In this document: one piece after another, positions 27,465 to 42,952 of the stretch | Layout: the number at the start of each line of letters is the position of its first letter | How positions within the stretch are numbered: position 1 is the first letter of the stretch | Source: Microscillaceae bacterium | GTDB taxonomy: Bacteria; Bacteroidota; Bacteroidia; Cytophagales; Microscillaceae | NCBI GenBank assembly: GCA_011390205.1 | Contig: JAABSX010000033.1 | Span: 1-42,952 of the forward strand | DNA: 42,952 nt | Direction: 5' to 3' | Position numbers and translations under genes: made by a program | The notes under the pieces: generated by a model | Databases searched by the model: none | The model's input: only the letters and a program-made list of their open reading frames with translations | Told to the model about the DNA's origin: nothing

Positions 27465-30400
27465 ATGAATACTTCAAAAACCCAACCCTCACAAGAGGGT
27501 TTACAGATACCTAACCCACCCAGACTACCCATCATTGGTAATTTACATCAATTATCTTCCGAAAATCCTACACAACATTTTATGGGACTTATGGAAAAGT
27601 ATGGGGAGATTCTCCGAATTTATACGCCCATTGGTGATATGGTGGTGGTTAAATCTTACAGATTCGCCAATGAACTCTGCGATGAAAGCCGATTTACCAA
27701 AAACCTCAGCCGCCCTCTCTTAGAGCTGAGAGATGTGGGCGGAGATGGCTTGTTTACGGCGTGGGGAAGCGAACCTAACTGGCAAAAAGCACATAATATT
27801 CTACTACCAGGGCTAGGGCAAAGGGCTATGAAGGGCTATTTCCCGATGATGTATGACATCGCAGAGCGGCTGCTTGCCAAGTGGCATAACATTCCCGAGG
27901 AGCAGTATTTTAACCTCACAGATGACATGACCCGACTTACTTTTGATACCATCGGGCTCTGCGGTTTTGATTATAGATTTCATTCTTTTGCCTCACCTGA
28001 GCCACATCCTTTTATAGAATCTATGGTCATCGCCCTAGAAGATTCTATGAAACGAATGAACAAAGTGCCCATTCAAAGAAAATTACGCTTTAAAAGCAAC
28101 CGAAAATACAAAAAAAGCCTTCAGTATATGTTTGAAGTAGTGGATGGAATCATCGCTGAGAGGCAAGCCAATCCTGAAAAATACCAGCACAACACAGATT
28201 TTATGAGCCTGATGCTCAATGCCACTGACCTAGAAAGTGGCGAAAAACTGGACCCCATCAACATCAGGTATCAAATCCTGACTTTCCTCATCGCAGGGCA
28301 CGAAACCACCAGCGGCTTGCTTTCTTTTGCTTTTTATTACCTCATGACCCACCCCGAAGTACTCCAAAAAGTCTATAAAGAAGTAGATACCGTACTGGGC
28401 AATGACCTTAACACAAAAATAGATTACCAGCAAATCAATGACCTCAAATACACCCAACAGGTCTTAAATGAATCTCTCCGACTTTGGCCTACTGCACCCG
28501 CATTCAGTGTCTATGCCAATGCAGATACCACACTGGGTAATTATCAAATAGACAAAAATCAACGCTTTATCGTACTGCTGCCAGGGCTGCACCGTGACCC
28601 TGCCGTCTGGGGCAAAGACGCAGACCAATTTGACCCTGATAATTTTAGACCCGAAGCCATCGAAAACAGGCCTCCCAATGCCTTCAAACCCTTCGGCAAT
28701 GGGCAAAGGGCTTGTATCGGAAGGCAGTTTGCCGTTCTGGAAGCCACCCTCATCATGGGGCTCATCCTCCAGCGATACCAGCTCCAGCTCAAAGAAGGCT
28801 ATGCCTTGCATATCAAAGAAACCCTTACCCTCAAGCCTGACGAACTGATGGTCAGCCTCAAAAAAAGAGATGACAAAGACCGCTACTATGCCCCTGCCCC
28901 ACCCAAAAAAGAAAAAACAGAGGTTCAATACAATGAAAGGTTCAAGCAAAATCCTCTCTGCATCGCCTATGGCTCTAATATGGGGGCTTCAGAAGAATTT
29001 GCCCTTCAAATAGCCCAAAAAGCAGAAAAAATGGGTTTCCCTTGCAGTTGCCAGCCCTTAGACGAACTCGTAGAGAACCTCCCCAAAGAAGGGACGCTCA
29101 TCGTCATCACGGCTACCTACAATGGCACACCACCCAACAATGCACAGAAATTTGAGGCTTGGCTAGATGCACTAGATGCCAAAAACCCTCTTCAAAATTT
29201 AAAATATGCTGTATTCGGATGTGGCAATACCCAATGGAAAACTTTTCAGGTATTCCCGAGGTGGATAGACCATAAAATGAGTGAACTAGGTGCTACCAGA
29301 CTACTCACACAAGGGGAAGCAGATGCCGCAGGAAGTGATTTTGAAGATGATTTTCAGACTTGGCAAGCAAGCCTATGGAAAAGCCTGCAAGCAGAAGAGA
29401 TGCAGTCAGAATCGAATACAAGTAGTTGGAAGTCAGGAATTTACGGAATAGAAAAAATACAAACAGAAACGTATGTCTCCCCCTCTCCACCCAATAGACA
29501 GGGAGAAAAACCGATGCAAGTGCTGGCAAATAAAGAACTTCAAAGCATCACCTCTCCTAGAAGTACCAGGCACGTAGAGCTCAAACTGCCACAAGGAATG
29601 ACTTATCAGACGGGTGATCACCTTGGGGTATATCCTCAGAACCATGCCCAGCTTATTGAGCGGGTATGCCAGTGTTTTGGCTTAAAGCAGACTGATATTT
29701 TGCTTATCAAGACTTCGTCGCAGCTAAAATCTCATTTGCCCATAGAAAAACCTATTTCTGTAAAAGACTTGCTGCAAAATTTTGTGGAGCTGCAGAGTCC
29801 TATTACTGCAAAGCAGCTCCAAATATTGATAGATCATACAAGCTGCCCACCAGAGAAGGCAACACTAGAAAACTGGCAAAGTAATTTTAAAACGGCTGTG
29901 CAAGCCCTAAACCGCTCTGTGCTAGATGTTTTAGAAGAAATCCCAGCCTGTGAGCTGCCCTTTTCTGTCTTTTTAGAATTGCTGCCGCCTATGCAGGTGC
30001 GGTATTTTTCCATTTCCTCTTCGGCAAAAGTGCAGCCTGAGCTTTGCAGCCTGACTGTGGGTGTGATAGATGCCCTTGCCTACAGCGGCAAAAAAAATTA
30101 CTATGGTGTATGCACTAATTACCTCAAAACCCTCCAAAAAGGGGATACTGTGCAGGCATTTGTGCAGCAGGTGAGCAGTCCCTTCAGATTGCCTGATGAG
30201 CTTAGCCAAAAAACCATTATGGTAGGTGCTGGCACGGGCTTATCACCCCTCAGGGCTTTTGTGCATGAGCTGGCAGCACTGAAATCCAGGCAAGAGGATA
30301 TAGGGCAATCTATGTTATTCTTTGGCTGCAGACACCCCGAAGAGGATTTTATTTATCAAGAAGAACTTGAGGGCTTTGCTCAGAGGGGCATCATAGCACT

Positions 30401-30662
30401 TCACACAGCTTTCTCTAGGCTTCATTCAGAAAAAGAATACGTACAAGACCTCCTATTGGCACAGCAAGACAAGCTCTGGCAATGGATACAAGAAGGAGCG
30501 ATTATCTATGTCTGTGGAGATGCTGCGCACATGGCACCGCAGGTCAGAGAGGCTCTTCAAGAAATCTACCTTCATCAAAACAAAGACAAGGCAGCCTATG
30601 CTCAAGCATGGCTAGATGAGATGATTCAGAAAGGACAATACCGTGAGGATGTCTGGGCATAG
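27465..30662 (+). CDS. Self-sufficient cytochrome P450 / NADPH-P450 reductase fusion (CYP102, P450 BM3-like)
   Basis: 1065 residues, near BM3's ~1049. Heme domain (~15-470): GDGLFTAW, NWQKAHNILLP, I-helix AGHETTS (277-283), ExxR at E336/R339, and heme-ligand Cys417 in FGNGQRACIGRQF. Then an FMN flavodoxin domain (~498-640: YGSNMGASEEFA, TATYNGTPPNNA, VFGCGNTQWKTF) and an FAD/NADPH reductase (~680-1065: YQTGDHLGVYP, RYFSISSS, VGAGTGLSPLRAF, YVCGDAAHM, ending EDVWA). Nearly every block matches BM3, so it should hydroxylate a lipophilic substrate with NADPH and oxygen. The two residues that hold the fatty-acid carboxylate in BM3 (Arg47, Tyr51) align with Gly and Val, so the substrate may differ. 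Start ATG 27465 is preferred over TTG 27414. No CYP102-type repressor is adjacent. Confidence 0.96.
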   Translation: MNTSKTQPSQEGLQIPNPPRLPIIGNLHQLSSENPTQHFMGLMEKYGEILRIYTPIGDMVVVKSYRFANELCDESRFTKNLSRPLLELRDVGGDGLFTAWGSEPNWQKAHNILLPGLGQRAMKGYFPMMYDIAERLLAKWHNIPEEQYFNLTDDMTRLTFDTIGLCGFDYRFHSFASPEPHPFIESMVIALEDSMKRMNKVPIQRKLRFKSNRKYKKSLQYMFEVVDGIIAERQANPEKYQHNTDFMSLMLNATDLESGEKLDPINIRYQILTFLIAGHETTSGLLSFAFYYLMTHPEVLQKVYKEVDTVLGNDLNTKIDYQQINDLKYTQQVLNESLRLWPTAPAFSVYANADTTLGNYQIDKNQRFIVLLPGLHRDPAVWGKDADQFDPDNFRPEAIENRPPNAFKPFGNGQRACIGRQFAVLEATLIMGLILQRYQLQLKEGYALHIKETLTLKPDELMVSLKKRDDKDRYYAPAPPKKEKTEVQYNERFKQNPLCIAYGSNMGASEEFALQIAQKAEKMGFPCSCQPLDELVENLPKEGTLIVITATYNGTPPNNAQKFEAWLDALDAKNPLQNLKYAVFGCGNTQWKTFQVFPRWIDHKMSELGATRLLTQGEADAAGSDFEDDFQTWQASLWKSLQAEEMQSESNTSSWKSGIYGIEKIQTETYVSPSPPNRQGEKPMQVLANKELQSITSPRSTRHVELKLPQGMTYQTGDHLGVYPQNHAQLIERVCQCFGLKQTDILLIKTSSQLKSHLPIEKPISVKDLLQNFVELQSPITAKQLQILIDHTSCPPEKATLENWQSNFKTAVQALNRSVLDVLEEIPACELPFSVFLELLPPMQVRYFSISSSAKVQPELCSLTVGVIDALAYSGKKNYYGVCTNYLKTLQKGDTVQAFVQQVSSPFRLPDELSQKTIMVGAGTGLSPLRAFVHELAALKSRQEDIGQSMLFFGCRHPEEDFIYQEELEGFAQRGIIALHTAFSRLHSEKEYVQDLLLAQQDKLWQWIQEGAIIYVCGDAAHMAPQVREALQEIYLHQNKDKAAYAQAWLDEMIQKGQYREDVWA

Positions 30663-40103: not shown

Positions 40104-40173
40104 TTTTGAAATGGAAATCTTGGAAAAATTATATCAAAATATTTGGAGTTTAAGATAGTATCTAAGAACAAAA

Positions 40174-40260
40174 TTACGAATCACTTAAACTCAAATATAA
40201 AATAAAATTCTGAAATAAACACAAATCAATACCCAAAACCACGACTGCATGATGCAAAAG
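40174..40260. repeat. 87-bp direct repeat, left copy
   Basis: Matches 42718-42804 in the same orientation with 6 differences in 87 positions (about 93%). It is followed by a small GC-rich hairpin, CGGAGGG...CCCGTCCG (40269-40286), and then CGACCAG, which also follows the right copy. The 246-bp spacer 40104-40349 holds no gene. Confidence 0.85.
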
Positions 40261-40349
40261 TCTTTGTTCGGAGGGAGACCCGTCCGACCAGTTTGCAGTT
40301 TTGGATTACGCTTAATGCCATAGCCTTAGACTAGATGGGGGTTCATGCT

Positions 40350-40628
40350 TTAAATCACAAAATCTTCATGTAGTATAATTAAATCAAGGAACTCATTCTT
40401 ATTTTTGTTTATAACTTCAGATAATTTAGTGCCACAAAAAGGACAAAAATGTATAGTAGTTTGTATTACTGATAAAGTTCCTTCTTTTTTATCGATATCT
40501 TGGCTTCTTGCCTGTAAAACAAAACAATATTGATTGGCAATTTTAGTAGCTAAAAGAGAGAATCCTTTCACACCTATTTCTGACAGACGATTTTCAAAAT
40601 TATCACAGCAACATCTAAATTTACACAT
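40350..40628 (-). CDS. Small putative zinc-binding protein
   Basis: 92 residues from the ATG at 40628. CKFRCCCDNFENRLSEIGVKGFSLLA at the start and IHFCPFCGTKLSEVI near residue 60 provide two cysteine clusters, compatible with one zinc site. The CPFCGTKL phrase is usual in short zinc-ribbon proteins. No function can be named. An upstream in-frame ATG (40721) would add a basic, unlikely N-terminus. The gene has fewer G/C bases than its neighbours and lies inside the segment bounded by direct repeats. Confidence 0.6.
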   Translation of the reverse strand: MCKFRCCCDNFENRLSEIGVKGFSLLATKIANQYCFVLQARSQDIDKKEGTLSVIQTTIHFCPFCGTKLSEVINKNKNEFLDLIILHEDFVI

Positions 40629-40749
40629 AAAGGTTAGTATTATTTGAATAAATATTTTTGAAGTTCTTCTGAAACTCTTGAAAAAAAAACGTATTTCCCC
40701 CACTGCTCTTAGCGTCCTCACATACCCTCAGAATTTATAATACCACCAC

Positions 40750-42519
40750 CTATTTATCCTTCTCTATATCGTTGAAATAACTCATGGTTTGGTCATATCC
40801 GTTTTGCAGGATTTCCTGCCATTTTGTGTCGTCCAACATTCCAAAACCCATTAAATTCAAATTAATATAATGTGTTACGTTGTGCTTTGCCAATTCTTGT
40901 TTTTGCTGGCTATTTATGGTAAGTGAGTTGATTACTATAGAAGCAAGACCAGGAATTGTATAGCGTTTTTTGAGGCTTATTTTGTCCCAAGCCAAACGCC
41001 AACTACTAGGTGCCTCTGCATAATCTACATCAACTATGTCAAAATTACTTAATGATACCGCAATGATGGTTTCTACTGGATAATAGTACATTGATTCTAT
41101 GGGAAGGTTGTCCATCACTCCACCATCAACGTGCAAATTTTTATCAATCACTACAGGAGGAAAAATACCAGGAATAGCCATACTTGCGAATACTTTTTTC
41201 CAAAGTAGTCCGCTTTTGTGTACCTCCATTTTTGCTTGGCTAAAGTTGGTGGAAACCGCAAACGAGGTTATCCATAAGTCTTCTATGGTATGTTCCTTAA
41301 AGGTTTCTTTAAGGTATTTTTTGAATTTTTTGCCCGACATCATAGAGACCAAAGGCAATGTTATGTCATTAGAAGTGAGTTTTCGCCTTACTGCTTCTTC
41401 ATTTAATGCACGAACTTTATCAAACTGAAAATCGGCATAACTCATTCCTAAACCATACAAAGCCCCTGCGCTTGTACCTCCCAAAAAATCAATTTCAAAA
41501 CCTTTTTCATACAATGCCTTCACTACGCCAACGTGTGCAAAACCCTTGGCTCCGCCACCTCCCAAAACCAGTCCTATGGCTTTGTGTGTAACAATACGGC
41601 AAAATCGCCTAATATCTGATAAATTGTTTTTACGTAAATGTAAATGCATAAAAACATTCCTTTTTGCTAACCATTTATCCGTATGCAGTGGTGCATCAGC
41701 CTTTATATGATGAAGCAATAAAAGGTATGTCCTCTTGTTCAATATGTTCTGACTATATAGACCTAGTTCTTGTTCAATTTCATATAAATCATTTTTAGCA
41801 TAGAAATCGGTGGCTACAATTACCAAATCGGCATAAATGATGCACGTTTTGCTCCACTCTTTATGCTGTGCATTGCAGGTGAGTATATTTAATCCGTCAA
41901 ATTTCTCGAGTGTATCAAAAAGATTGTTTTGAGTCTCTTCGCTCTGATTATCAAAGCTATAAATCTGTGCAGGAATTGTCATTTTGTCAAACTCCGCCTT
42001 TATTTCATTTATATAATCGGCCAACAGTTCTTCACTCTGAAGACTAAGAATAGCAATGTTTTTAGGTGGGCTAGTTCTGCTTGTTTCAAATGCATTCCGT
42101 TTCAATCGCTTTATAATAAATTGAATAAGCATAGTAGCAATCTCGGGATTTTGCCTTACTAAATGCTGATAACTCTGCTCATTAAACCGCAAAACCACTG
42201 AATCTCGAATAGCAAGAACTGATGCCATTCGTGGTTCTTGGGTAAAGAATGCAAACTCACCAACGGGTTCACCAGCACCTATATCCCCAAGCACAACCCG
42301 CGATTCATCGGCTTCTTTTTTTATAGCGCGTAATCTGCCTGAAAGTAAGATATATAGCACATCTGCTGTGTCTCCTTGCTTAAAAAGATACTCTCCCGTT
42401 TCAAGTAGCATCTCCTCACCTTGTTCAAGTATTTTCGCAATAGCCTCTGCACTCATAGTAGAGAAATTGCGACTTAAATGATGGCTTAAATTAGAATTGT
42501 GAAATTTGTTTTTATTCAT
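40750..42519 (-). CDS. Patatin-like phospholipase with N-terminal cyclic-nucleotide-binding domain (NTE/RssA family)
   Basis: 589 residues. Residues ~18-130 form a cNMP-binding domain (GEYLFKQGDTADVLYILLSGRL and GEFAFFTQEPRMASVLA, with Glu and Arg of the phosphate cassette position). A middle region (~150-310) resembles the linker of neuropathy-target-esterase relatives. The patatin domain follows: oxyanion block GLVLGGGGAKGFAHVG (316-331), nucleophile Ser350 in GTSAG, and Asp465 in VDGGVMDNLP. The Ser-Asp dyad is intact, so lipid hydrolysis gated by a nucleotide ligand is expected. No signal peptide or membrane helix. Confidence 0.92.
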   Translation of the reverse strand: MNKNKFHNSNLSHHLSRNFSTMSAEAIAKILEQGEEMLLETGEYLFKQGDTADVLYILLSGRLRAIKKEADESRVVLGDIGAGEPVGEFAFFTQEPRMASVLAIRDSVVLRFNEQSYQHLVRQNPEIATMLIQFIIKRLKRNAFETSRTSPPKNIAILSLQSEELLADYINEIKAEFDKMTIPAQIYSFDNQSEETQNNLFDTLEKFDGLNILTCNAQHKEWSKTCIIYADLVIVATDFYAKNDLYEIEQELGLYSQNILNKRTYLLLLHHIKADAPLHTDKWLAKRNVFMHLHLRKNNLSDIRRFCRIVTHKAIGLVLGGGGAKGFAHVGVVKALYEKGFEIDFLGGTSAGALYGLGMSYADFQFDKVRALNEEAVRRKLTSNDITLPLVSMMSGKKFKKYLKETFKEHTIEDLWITSFAVSTNFSQAKMEVHKSGLLWKKVFASMAIPGIFPPVVIDKNLHVDGGVMDNLPIESMYYYPVETIIAVSLSNFDIVDVDYAEAPSSWRLAWDKISLKKRYTIPGLASIVINSLTINSQQKQELAKHNVTHYINLNLMGFGMLDDTKWQEILQNGYDQTMSYFNDIEKDK

Positions 42520-42660
42520 TTACAGAAGATTACAATTGAAGTATTTATAAAACCACGATATTAAACCGAATTCAATGCGCAATATGACTACCAGCTACCA
42601 ACCTTTAAATCTAAAAGAGATAAAAAATAACATTTGTTGAGGAGGATTTTCGCCCCTTTA

Positions 42661-42849
42661 GTCGCAGCGTCTTGACCCACAAGCGCAAAGTTTTGAGCTT
42701 CTCACTCATAGCACACTTTACGAATAATTTAAACTCAAATATAAAATAAAATTCTGAAATAAACTCAAATCAATATCCAAAACCACGACTGTATGATGCA
42801 AAAATTTGAGCGAGAGGCTAAGAACAGTTGCGGGTCAAGACGCTGCGAC
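42661..42849. repeat. Perfect 18-bp inverted repeat framing the right 87-bp copy
   Basis: GTCGCAGCGTCTTGACCC (42661-42678) is the exact reverse complement of 42832-42849. Pairing continues imperfectly inward (AGCTTCTCACTCA against AGCCTCTCGCTCA, two differences). The resulting long cruciform-like structure encloses the direct repeat at 42718-42804. Confidence 0.8.
42718..42804. repeat. 87-bp direct repeat, right copy
   Basis: Second copy of the element at 40174-40260, same orientation, 2544 bp apart. The shared core includes AAATAAAATTCTGAAATAAA and CCAAAACCACGACTG. Confidence 0.85.
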
Positions 42850-42952
42850 CAGAGGGGGCAGTGCCCCCCTTCTCAAAAAAAAGCGACACTGCCCTCAGTA
42901 AGTTTTGAATACGTATCTCCCAAAAAGCATTTATACCAAGCTAAACTGCTTG

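Follow-up and report, generated by a model that had tools for sequence, protein, structure and literature searches.

REPINs, i.e., doublets of REP sequences associated with a REP-associated tyrosine transposase (RAYT), have been described to adopt both long-hairpin and clover folds (PMC3116915). Among the transposases of the Y1 type, TnpA-Y1 subclass 2.6 is characterized by a length of 179 aa, the motifs NH[LIV]H, WQ and YIH[QN]NP, and a median HUH-Y spacing of 82; for this subclass, which belongs to Bacteroidetes, atypical flanking structures without GT[AG]G were found by hand, with copies elsewhere in the genome (PMC6006769). In the TIRtrons, RAYT-like genes (TIRYT) are flanked by long inverted repeats, which form repeat families as well as dimers and carry a G-run motif (PMC3733652).

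Here, we analyzed a pair of repeats flanking two genes and consider it roughly 60% probable that they belong to a dispersed, non-autonomous, REPIN-like palindromic element, which is possibly moved by a RAYT, and that the bracketed genes are neighbors of the element and no cassette. Literature searches retrieved no description of such an element, which does not prove that none exists.

The repeat pair and the element around it

A reading of the sequence alone had proposed a two-gene accessory segment bounded by direct repeats of 87 bp with 93% identity. The repeats indeed run in the same direction on the same strand, but they measure 86 nt with 94% identity, at a spacing of 2544 (Table 1). The window, i.e., the whole stretch of 42,952 nt that was analyzed, is one entire contig (C51) of a 4.51-Mb genome with 124 contigs, which originates from a member of the Microscillaceae, a family of the Bacteroidetes. 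The similarity of both repeats continues past the 86 nt, and the pair is far above chance, with a genome total of about 30 related, core-bearing copies in addition to loose arms. The 86 nt form the central part of a larger, dispersed palindromic element.

Both window copies are damaged or rearranged, copy 1 being a truncated hybrid and copy 2 having a swapped right arm. The second repeat to which the left side of copy 1 is joined passes, on contig C57, directly into an element-like end, CTAAGACCAGTAGGGGGG. That a hairpin and CGACCAG follow both copies, as had been read from the sequence, is literally true, but the part concerned is not the same: CGACCAG is the closing part of the inner right-hand hairpin in copy 1, while in copy 2, it forms the outer terminus of the inverted left arm (about 42806-42858) that replaces the normal right arm. 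As a single strand, copy 1 folds no better than shuffled sequences (z -0.76), and copy 2 folds strongly (z -6.03). With gaps ignored, the identity of copy 1 amounts to 95.9% with a copy on contig C38 and to 94.2% with copy 2; for copy 2, copy 1 is the nearest (94.2%), followed by the C38 copy (93.2%). Judged from these identities, the window pair is not unusually alike. Past copy 2, the contig end (42858-42952) matches the opposite strand of contig C7 over the 94 bases with which C7 begins (96% identity), and the window contig therefore breaks inside a repeat.

Table 1. Coordinates of the features at the repeat pair (positions within the window).
Feature	Position	Strand	Basis
Stretch of a second repeat (~55 nt), joined to copy 1 on the left, with an overlap at the left end of copy 1	40115..40170	+	96-98% matches to C57:14-67 and C80 (L069:3799-3855)
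Element copy 1, left arm mostly missing	40156..40341	+	Matches to full copies
Copy 1 core, 86 nt, conserved (first repeat)	40174..40259	+	Genome-wide matches
Copy 1 right-hand hairpin, CGGAGGG AGA CCCGTCCG type	40265..40290	+	Helix 6 of the covariation count, row C51a
Copy 1 outer right arm, G run at its end	40291..40341	+	Alignment A1
Gene for a 92-aa protein between the copies, CPFCG motif (by eye), GC 28%; probably a neighbor and not a part of the element	40350..40628	-	
Gene for a 589-aa cNMP-binding/NTE-type patatin-like phospholipase between the copies; probably a neighbor and not a part of the element	40750..42519	-	Pfam PF00027, PF24179, PF01734
Copy 2 left arm: C run, outer stem, left hairpin	42653..42717	+	Inverted repeat I1; same arm in other copies
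Copy 2 core, 86 nt, conserved (second repeat)	42718..42803	+	Direct repeat; genome-wide matches
Copy 2 right arm, an inverted left arm with a G run at its end	42806..42858	-	Opposite-strand match to left arms of other copies, up to 100% over 32 nt

An alignment of 27 sequences (A1), several of which lack an arm and all of which were kept for the covariation count, revealed the order of parts as C run, outer stem of the CTGGTCTTAG type, CCCRCAACAGCAAAC stem, left hairpin, core, right hairpin, matching outer stems, and G run. On this structure, which was drawn from the same sequences as were scored, 74.9% of the cells are paired (69.9% after shuffling, 30.9-41.3% with slid partners), and the covariation score amounts to 0.226, compared to 0.153 for shuffled and 0.062-0.091 for slid versions, with 0/500 shuffles as high. 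The hairpin helices are 84-87% paired, and the outer stems are weaker with 65-67%. Two-sided changes are found in the hairpin helices (e.g., CG:11/UA:11 and CG:14/GC:6); the number of pairs with such changes, which related copies inflate, is 28 and not above the 26-28 of the slid versions. Since the hairpin in each arm shows compensatory changes and an outer stem is present in addition, the element has the two inverted hairpins of a REPIN. At the hairpin feet of the displayed copies, no GT[AG]G was seen by eye, and the GTAG of REPINs is lacking accordingly; the hairpin tip of the element reads GAGCGAGAYGC. Folded as single-stranded DNA, an intact copy reaches a z of -6.05 for one strand and -4.62 for the other, and its best fold pairs one hairpin with the other rather than each with itself.

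Parts of the element are also exchanged at other places: the row of the C80 copy shows a swap like that of copy 2, and on C52, there is a place where the core is connected to a different hairpin family. A second palindromic family of roughly 220 bp with GTAGTTTGAGCGNAGCGGAAACTAC hairpins and C/G-run ends was observed at L063:3351-3580, L073:460-681, and L070:4408-4630 (94-96% identical). Its sites are located on contigs C47, C57, and C104 as well as, in diverged form, on C80, and it appears to interrupt the element core on C47 and C57.

Dispersal of the element and the genes between the window copies

Using the core and right hairpin of copy 1 as a 127-nt query, 35 matches were found in the 4.51-Mb genome, and copy 2 with its surroundings, an arm-bearing query, yielded 54 matches, arms counted. 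An overlap of more than 40 bases with an ORF of at least 90 aa was found for 0/42 mapped places in this genome and for 1/10 places in the relative G009. The element is thus extragenic, dispersed, and present in multiple copies, as REPINs are, and this dispersal over intergenic sites supports the suggestion, already made from the sequence, of a non-autonomous or REP-like family. The same genome-wide count weighs against the accessory segment, for which a repeat found in intergenic spacers everywhere and without cargo had been named as the adverse outcome, since this is largely what was observed. Nor is it supported that the repeats delimit a unit, as copy 1 is truncated and fused, copy 2 has a swapped arm, and copy 1 is nearer to the C38 copy.

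The description of the two genes themselves holds. The smaller one has a GC content of only 28% and encodes 92 aa, and profile scans assigned no family above the cut-off to its CPFCG-motif protein; the larger one encodes a phospholipase with cNMP-binding, NTE P-loop-like, and patatin domains. Between the repeats, GC is 35.6%, compared to 40.1% for the window. A match spanning both domains of the patatin protein was found in 0/36 relatives and a partial match in 30/36, and no relatives of it were found in the searched genome contig collection. As had been noted before, no transposase or integrase is seen; Pfam names none among the 33 window ORFs of at least 90 aa. In a PADLOC search with the patatin protein (window 40750-42519), TIR effector and PycTIR models were hit by the cNMP domain (best E 4.2e-15), and phospholipase effector models by the C-terminus (1.9e-10). 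A defense role of this protein would be only a thought, as no cyclase was noticed beside its gene. Elsewhere in the window (27465-30662), a 1065-aa cytochrome P450 fused to a flavodoxin/FAD/NAD reductase is encoded.

The two genes might have entered as a cassette or circle by homologous recombination with an element already in place, so that a direct repeat remained on either side, a course of events that we regard as improbable. It would be in line with the frequent clustering of copies, since 11 pairs lie within 3 kb of each other compared to 0.58 expected, where placement is taken as uniform and not as intergenic, and two of the counted copies, on C58, are short partial matches. Five same-direction clusters, that of the window contig counted (C51, C103, C89, C58, and C47 at 8-10 kb), bracket seven genes, 7/7 of them pointing against the element, but in a sixth cluster, the copies are inverted around a CNNM/CBS gene. 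The likeness of neighboring copies, which are slightly more alike than random ones (mean 0.848 vs 0.808; 186/5000 permutations as high, with one of the two identical C47 copies dropped), speaks mildly in favor of a cassette, and so do the AT-richness of the segment and the lack of a both-domain patatin match in the 36 relatives. However, the left arm of copy 1 is missing and the copy forms a hybrid with a different repeat, it is closer to the C38 copy than to copy 2, and no integrase was found in the scanned window ORFs or among the bracketed genes. Furthermore, neither an empty site nor a movement event was seen. The left flank gene encodes an FtsX-like permease, for which 12/14 relatives of the same family have strong matches (E below 1e-60), and beside ftsX, only the ABC-transporter pair matches the window in 9/9 relatives examined; synteny around this gene is therefore too poor for an empty site to be found. 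Taken together, the cassette reading is weakened and a REP-like, non-autonomous family is the best reading, with the two genes between the repeats probably being just neighbors and not a mobile package.

At two other element pairs, additional sequences were observed. A Phage_pRha fragment (L066:2017-2325) adjoins the pair on C89, and a fragment between two copies on C79 (L071:4081-4154, i.e., C79:24080-24153) reads QHLSLGIDISKDKFDVCLMYL by eye, which we take to be reminiscent of IS110-type transposases. Finding an empty site via this interrupted fragment was ruled out, as it is unique in the genome.

Mode of movement and a candidate enzyme

Two identical 234-bp copies are located on one contig (C47:8023-8256 and C47:8391-8624), and their flanks differ at once on both sides. 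Therefore, the ends of the unit can be fixed, running from C run..CTGGTC to GACCAG..G run. The identity of these copies suggests recent copying, with gene conversion as a possible alternative cause. When target duplications of 2-10 bases were sought at common offsets, none fitted more than 2 of the 13 copies having both ends (one of the 14 chosen copies, C47p, was excluded, as it has no clear ends). While this is no proof, the missing duplication fits movement of the HUH type better than a DDE transposase.

The latter would be required if the element were a classical MITE, i.e., an internally deleted derivative of a DDE insertion sequence that is moved via its terminal inverted repeats. Long, imperfect terminal inverted repeats, C/G-run ends, and small, dispersed copies would all agree with this explanation. 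However, besides the target duplication that was not seen at common offsets in the 13 copies, no transposase gene framed by two arms was noticed at the mapped places, where neighbors are partly annotated and breaks between draft contigs may conceal such a gene. For a simple DDE end, one would not expect a hairpin within each arm. On balance, we consider a MITE origin unlikely.

Under the REPIN-like reading, by contrast, both window repeats would represent damaged or rearranged copies of a palindromic element of ~210-250 bp, which would spread as single-stranded DNA. Its folded hairpins would be recognized and cut in trans, as proposed for REPINs, by a Y1 (HUH) REP-associated tyrosine transposase of the Bacteroidetes type, and the two genes between the window copies would be accessory neighbors and not a cassette carried by the repeats.

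Two Y1-transposase matches were identified in the genome, an intact one at C47:7350-7901 and a broken one on C11. The intact RAYT corresponds to NCBIfam NF047646 (86.8 bits; cut-off 80) and comprises 183 aa, with HVH, WQ, and YLHNNP at residues 60, 123, and 144 and a HUH-Y spacing of 84; with NHVH, WQ, and YLHNNP (L in place of I), it carries the motifs of subclass 2.6. An element copy begins 122 bp downstream of this RAYT. The RAYT sits between inverted hairpins with the tip TGAGCGNAGCGGNNAC, as does a 62.5%-identical relative in the genome G014. This tip occurs 14 times in the genome studied here, compared to 1 match for a reversed control pattern, and is present in 12/37 genomes, including genomes where this RAYT type was not sought. 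It is similar to the element tip, yet the hairpins flanking the RAYT represent a different sequence family, and C-run/G-run ends are common to the RAYT flank, the second family of ~220 bp, and the element. In G014 (L238, G014:C260), 31 TGAGCGNAGCGGNNAC tips were observed, many of them near contig ends and two in inverted orientation around the RAYT, and they likely form a REP family of their own.

A co-evolution of element and RAYT was considered and found to be unsupported, as the RAYT is equally near to that of G014, a genome without an element match (62.5% identity), and to that of G009, which harbors the element (63.1%) and in which the tip TGAGCGNAGCGGNNAC is not found on the contig of the RAYT. 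A tight partnership of element and RAYT is disfavored, as G014 shows no element although its RAYT has the same degree of similarity as that of G009; this comparison covers 16 loci, two of them without an ORF, two spurious (G026 and G015), and several from other Y1 subfamilies. The RAYT is the best candidate for moving the element, which we rate as about an even bet.

The element is present in 2/37 genomes, own genome counted, and among the 389 other genomes of the order, only 1, which belongs to another genus of the same family, has substantial matches. This results in an order-wide tally of 2/390 genomes, own counted, with six genomes set aside; these six of the eight positive genomes have only AT-rich matches of 27-47 nt to the core, which we take as chance, and as two candidates were scored per genome, weak copies elsewhere may have escaped detection. 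A congeneric genome turned up in neither the 37-genome nor the 390-genome set. A 25-base core pattern matched only the Microscillaceae bacterium isolate SM2_1_3 in a genome collection of 84,980 species, from which the own record may be excluded, and had no match in viral contigs. The same pattern was found in 16 places of the sampled stretches of the own genome and in 2 of G009, and it misses diverged copies.

The conserved core and the relation to known systems

The core blocks are 84% and 82% identical between the two genera (15 copies vs 2), compared to 60% for the linker, 71% and 64% for the outer arms, and 77% and 73% for the hairpins. From this comparison, a core conserved better than the arms across genera is the odd feature of the element, since the spacer of a REPIN need not be. 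Such conservation would be explained if the core were a structured RNA or a mobile promoter, being transcribed or driving neighboring genes, with copies kept for that purpose. In line with this, the minus strand of the core has TATATTTG in 15/27 copies, which presumably resembles the Bacteroidetes -7 box, and to the left, 19/27 unique cases have a gene directed away from the element. A promoter on the minus strand of the core may thus be put forward as one idea, an unproved one.

However, no credible Rfam family was found for 7 loci, with 13 weak matches of which none reached the gathering score, and a match of copy 2 to a miRNA precursor (33 bits against a cut-off of 230; E 0.002) is taken as chance, given the long hairpin. 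Reading frames in the core are broken (by eye), and G-T versus A-C changes indicate no consistent strand, with 9 vs 9 for hairpin R and 19 vs 4 for hairpin L, 12/19 of the latter deriving from one column. The orientation bias is weak as well: 36/54 neighbors point against the element (left 19/27, two-sided p 0.05; right 17/27, p 0.25), a count in which six arm-only places are excluded and a gene lying on two sides is counted twice. We therefore hold an RNA or promoter function as the reason for the copies to be distinctly improbable. Two further ideas were dropped: a short peptide in the minus-strand core, as stops and frames vary among the copies (by eye), and an integron-like attC, as no conserved end box or integrase was seen.

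A bolder reading, which we judge to be unlikely, is that subclass 2.6 tyrosine transposases spread a tripartite mobile repeat, made up of two REP-like hairpin modules with C-run/G-run ends replacing GTAG and of a selected 86-nt core. If true, the core would be cargo with a function of its own, as a promoter or a protein site upstream of genes, and this would also explain the same-direction clusters bracketing accessory genes of a single orientation.

In the preferred reading of a non-autonomous REPIN-like element, a would-be mobile gene cassette is replaced by a repeat family with defined unit ends, which can be compared to known systems. Bacterial MITEs such as ERIC, NEMIS, and RUP (PMC3733652) resemble the element in their size, inverted ends, and intergenic spread, but the element has no target duplication that could be seen and contains an extra hairpin within each arm. 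With TIRtrons and their TIRYT genes, it shares long inverted repeats, the formation of repeat families, and a G run, whereas the motif GGGGWSAS was not found at the element ends inspected by eye (PMC3733652). The likeness to REPINs and REP doublets (PMC3116915) extends to inverted, hairpin-bearing ends, an intergenic location, the occurrence as single copies and clusters, a cluster beside a RAYT, and the ability of the two hairpins to also pair together. In contrast to these, the element lacks GTAG, is ~234 bp long, has a conserved core of 86 nt, and carries a hairpin that differs from the flank of its own RAYT. Finally, TnpA-Y1 subclass 2.6, or RAYT group 5, agrees in the length and motifs of the RAYT, in structures without GT[AG]G, and in copies elsewhere in the genome (PMC6006769); between the element and the structures flanking its own RAYT, likeness is confined to the tip and the C/G-run layout, and the element would be a candidate member of the structures described for this subclass. 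The element and the related hairpin families of the same genome provide concrete substrates on which a subclass 2.6 transposase could be tested.
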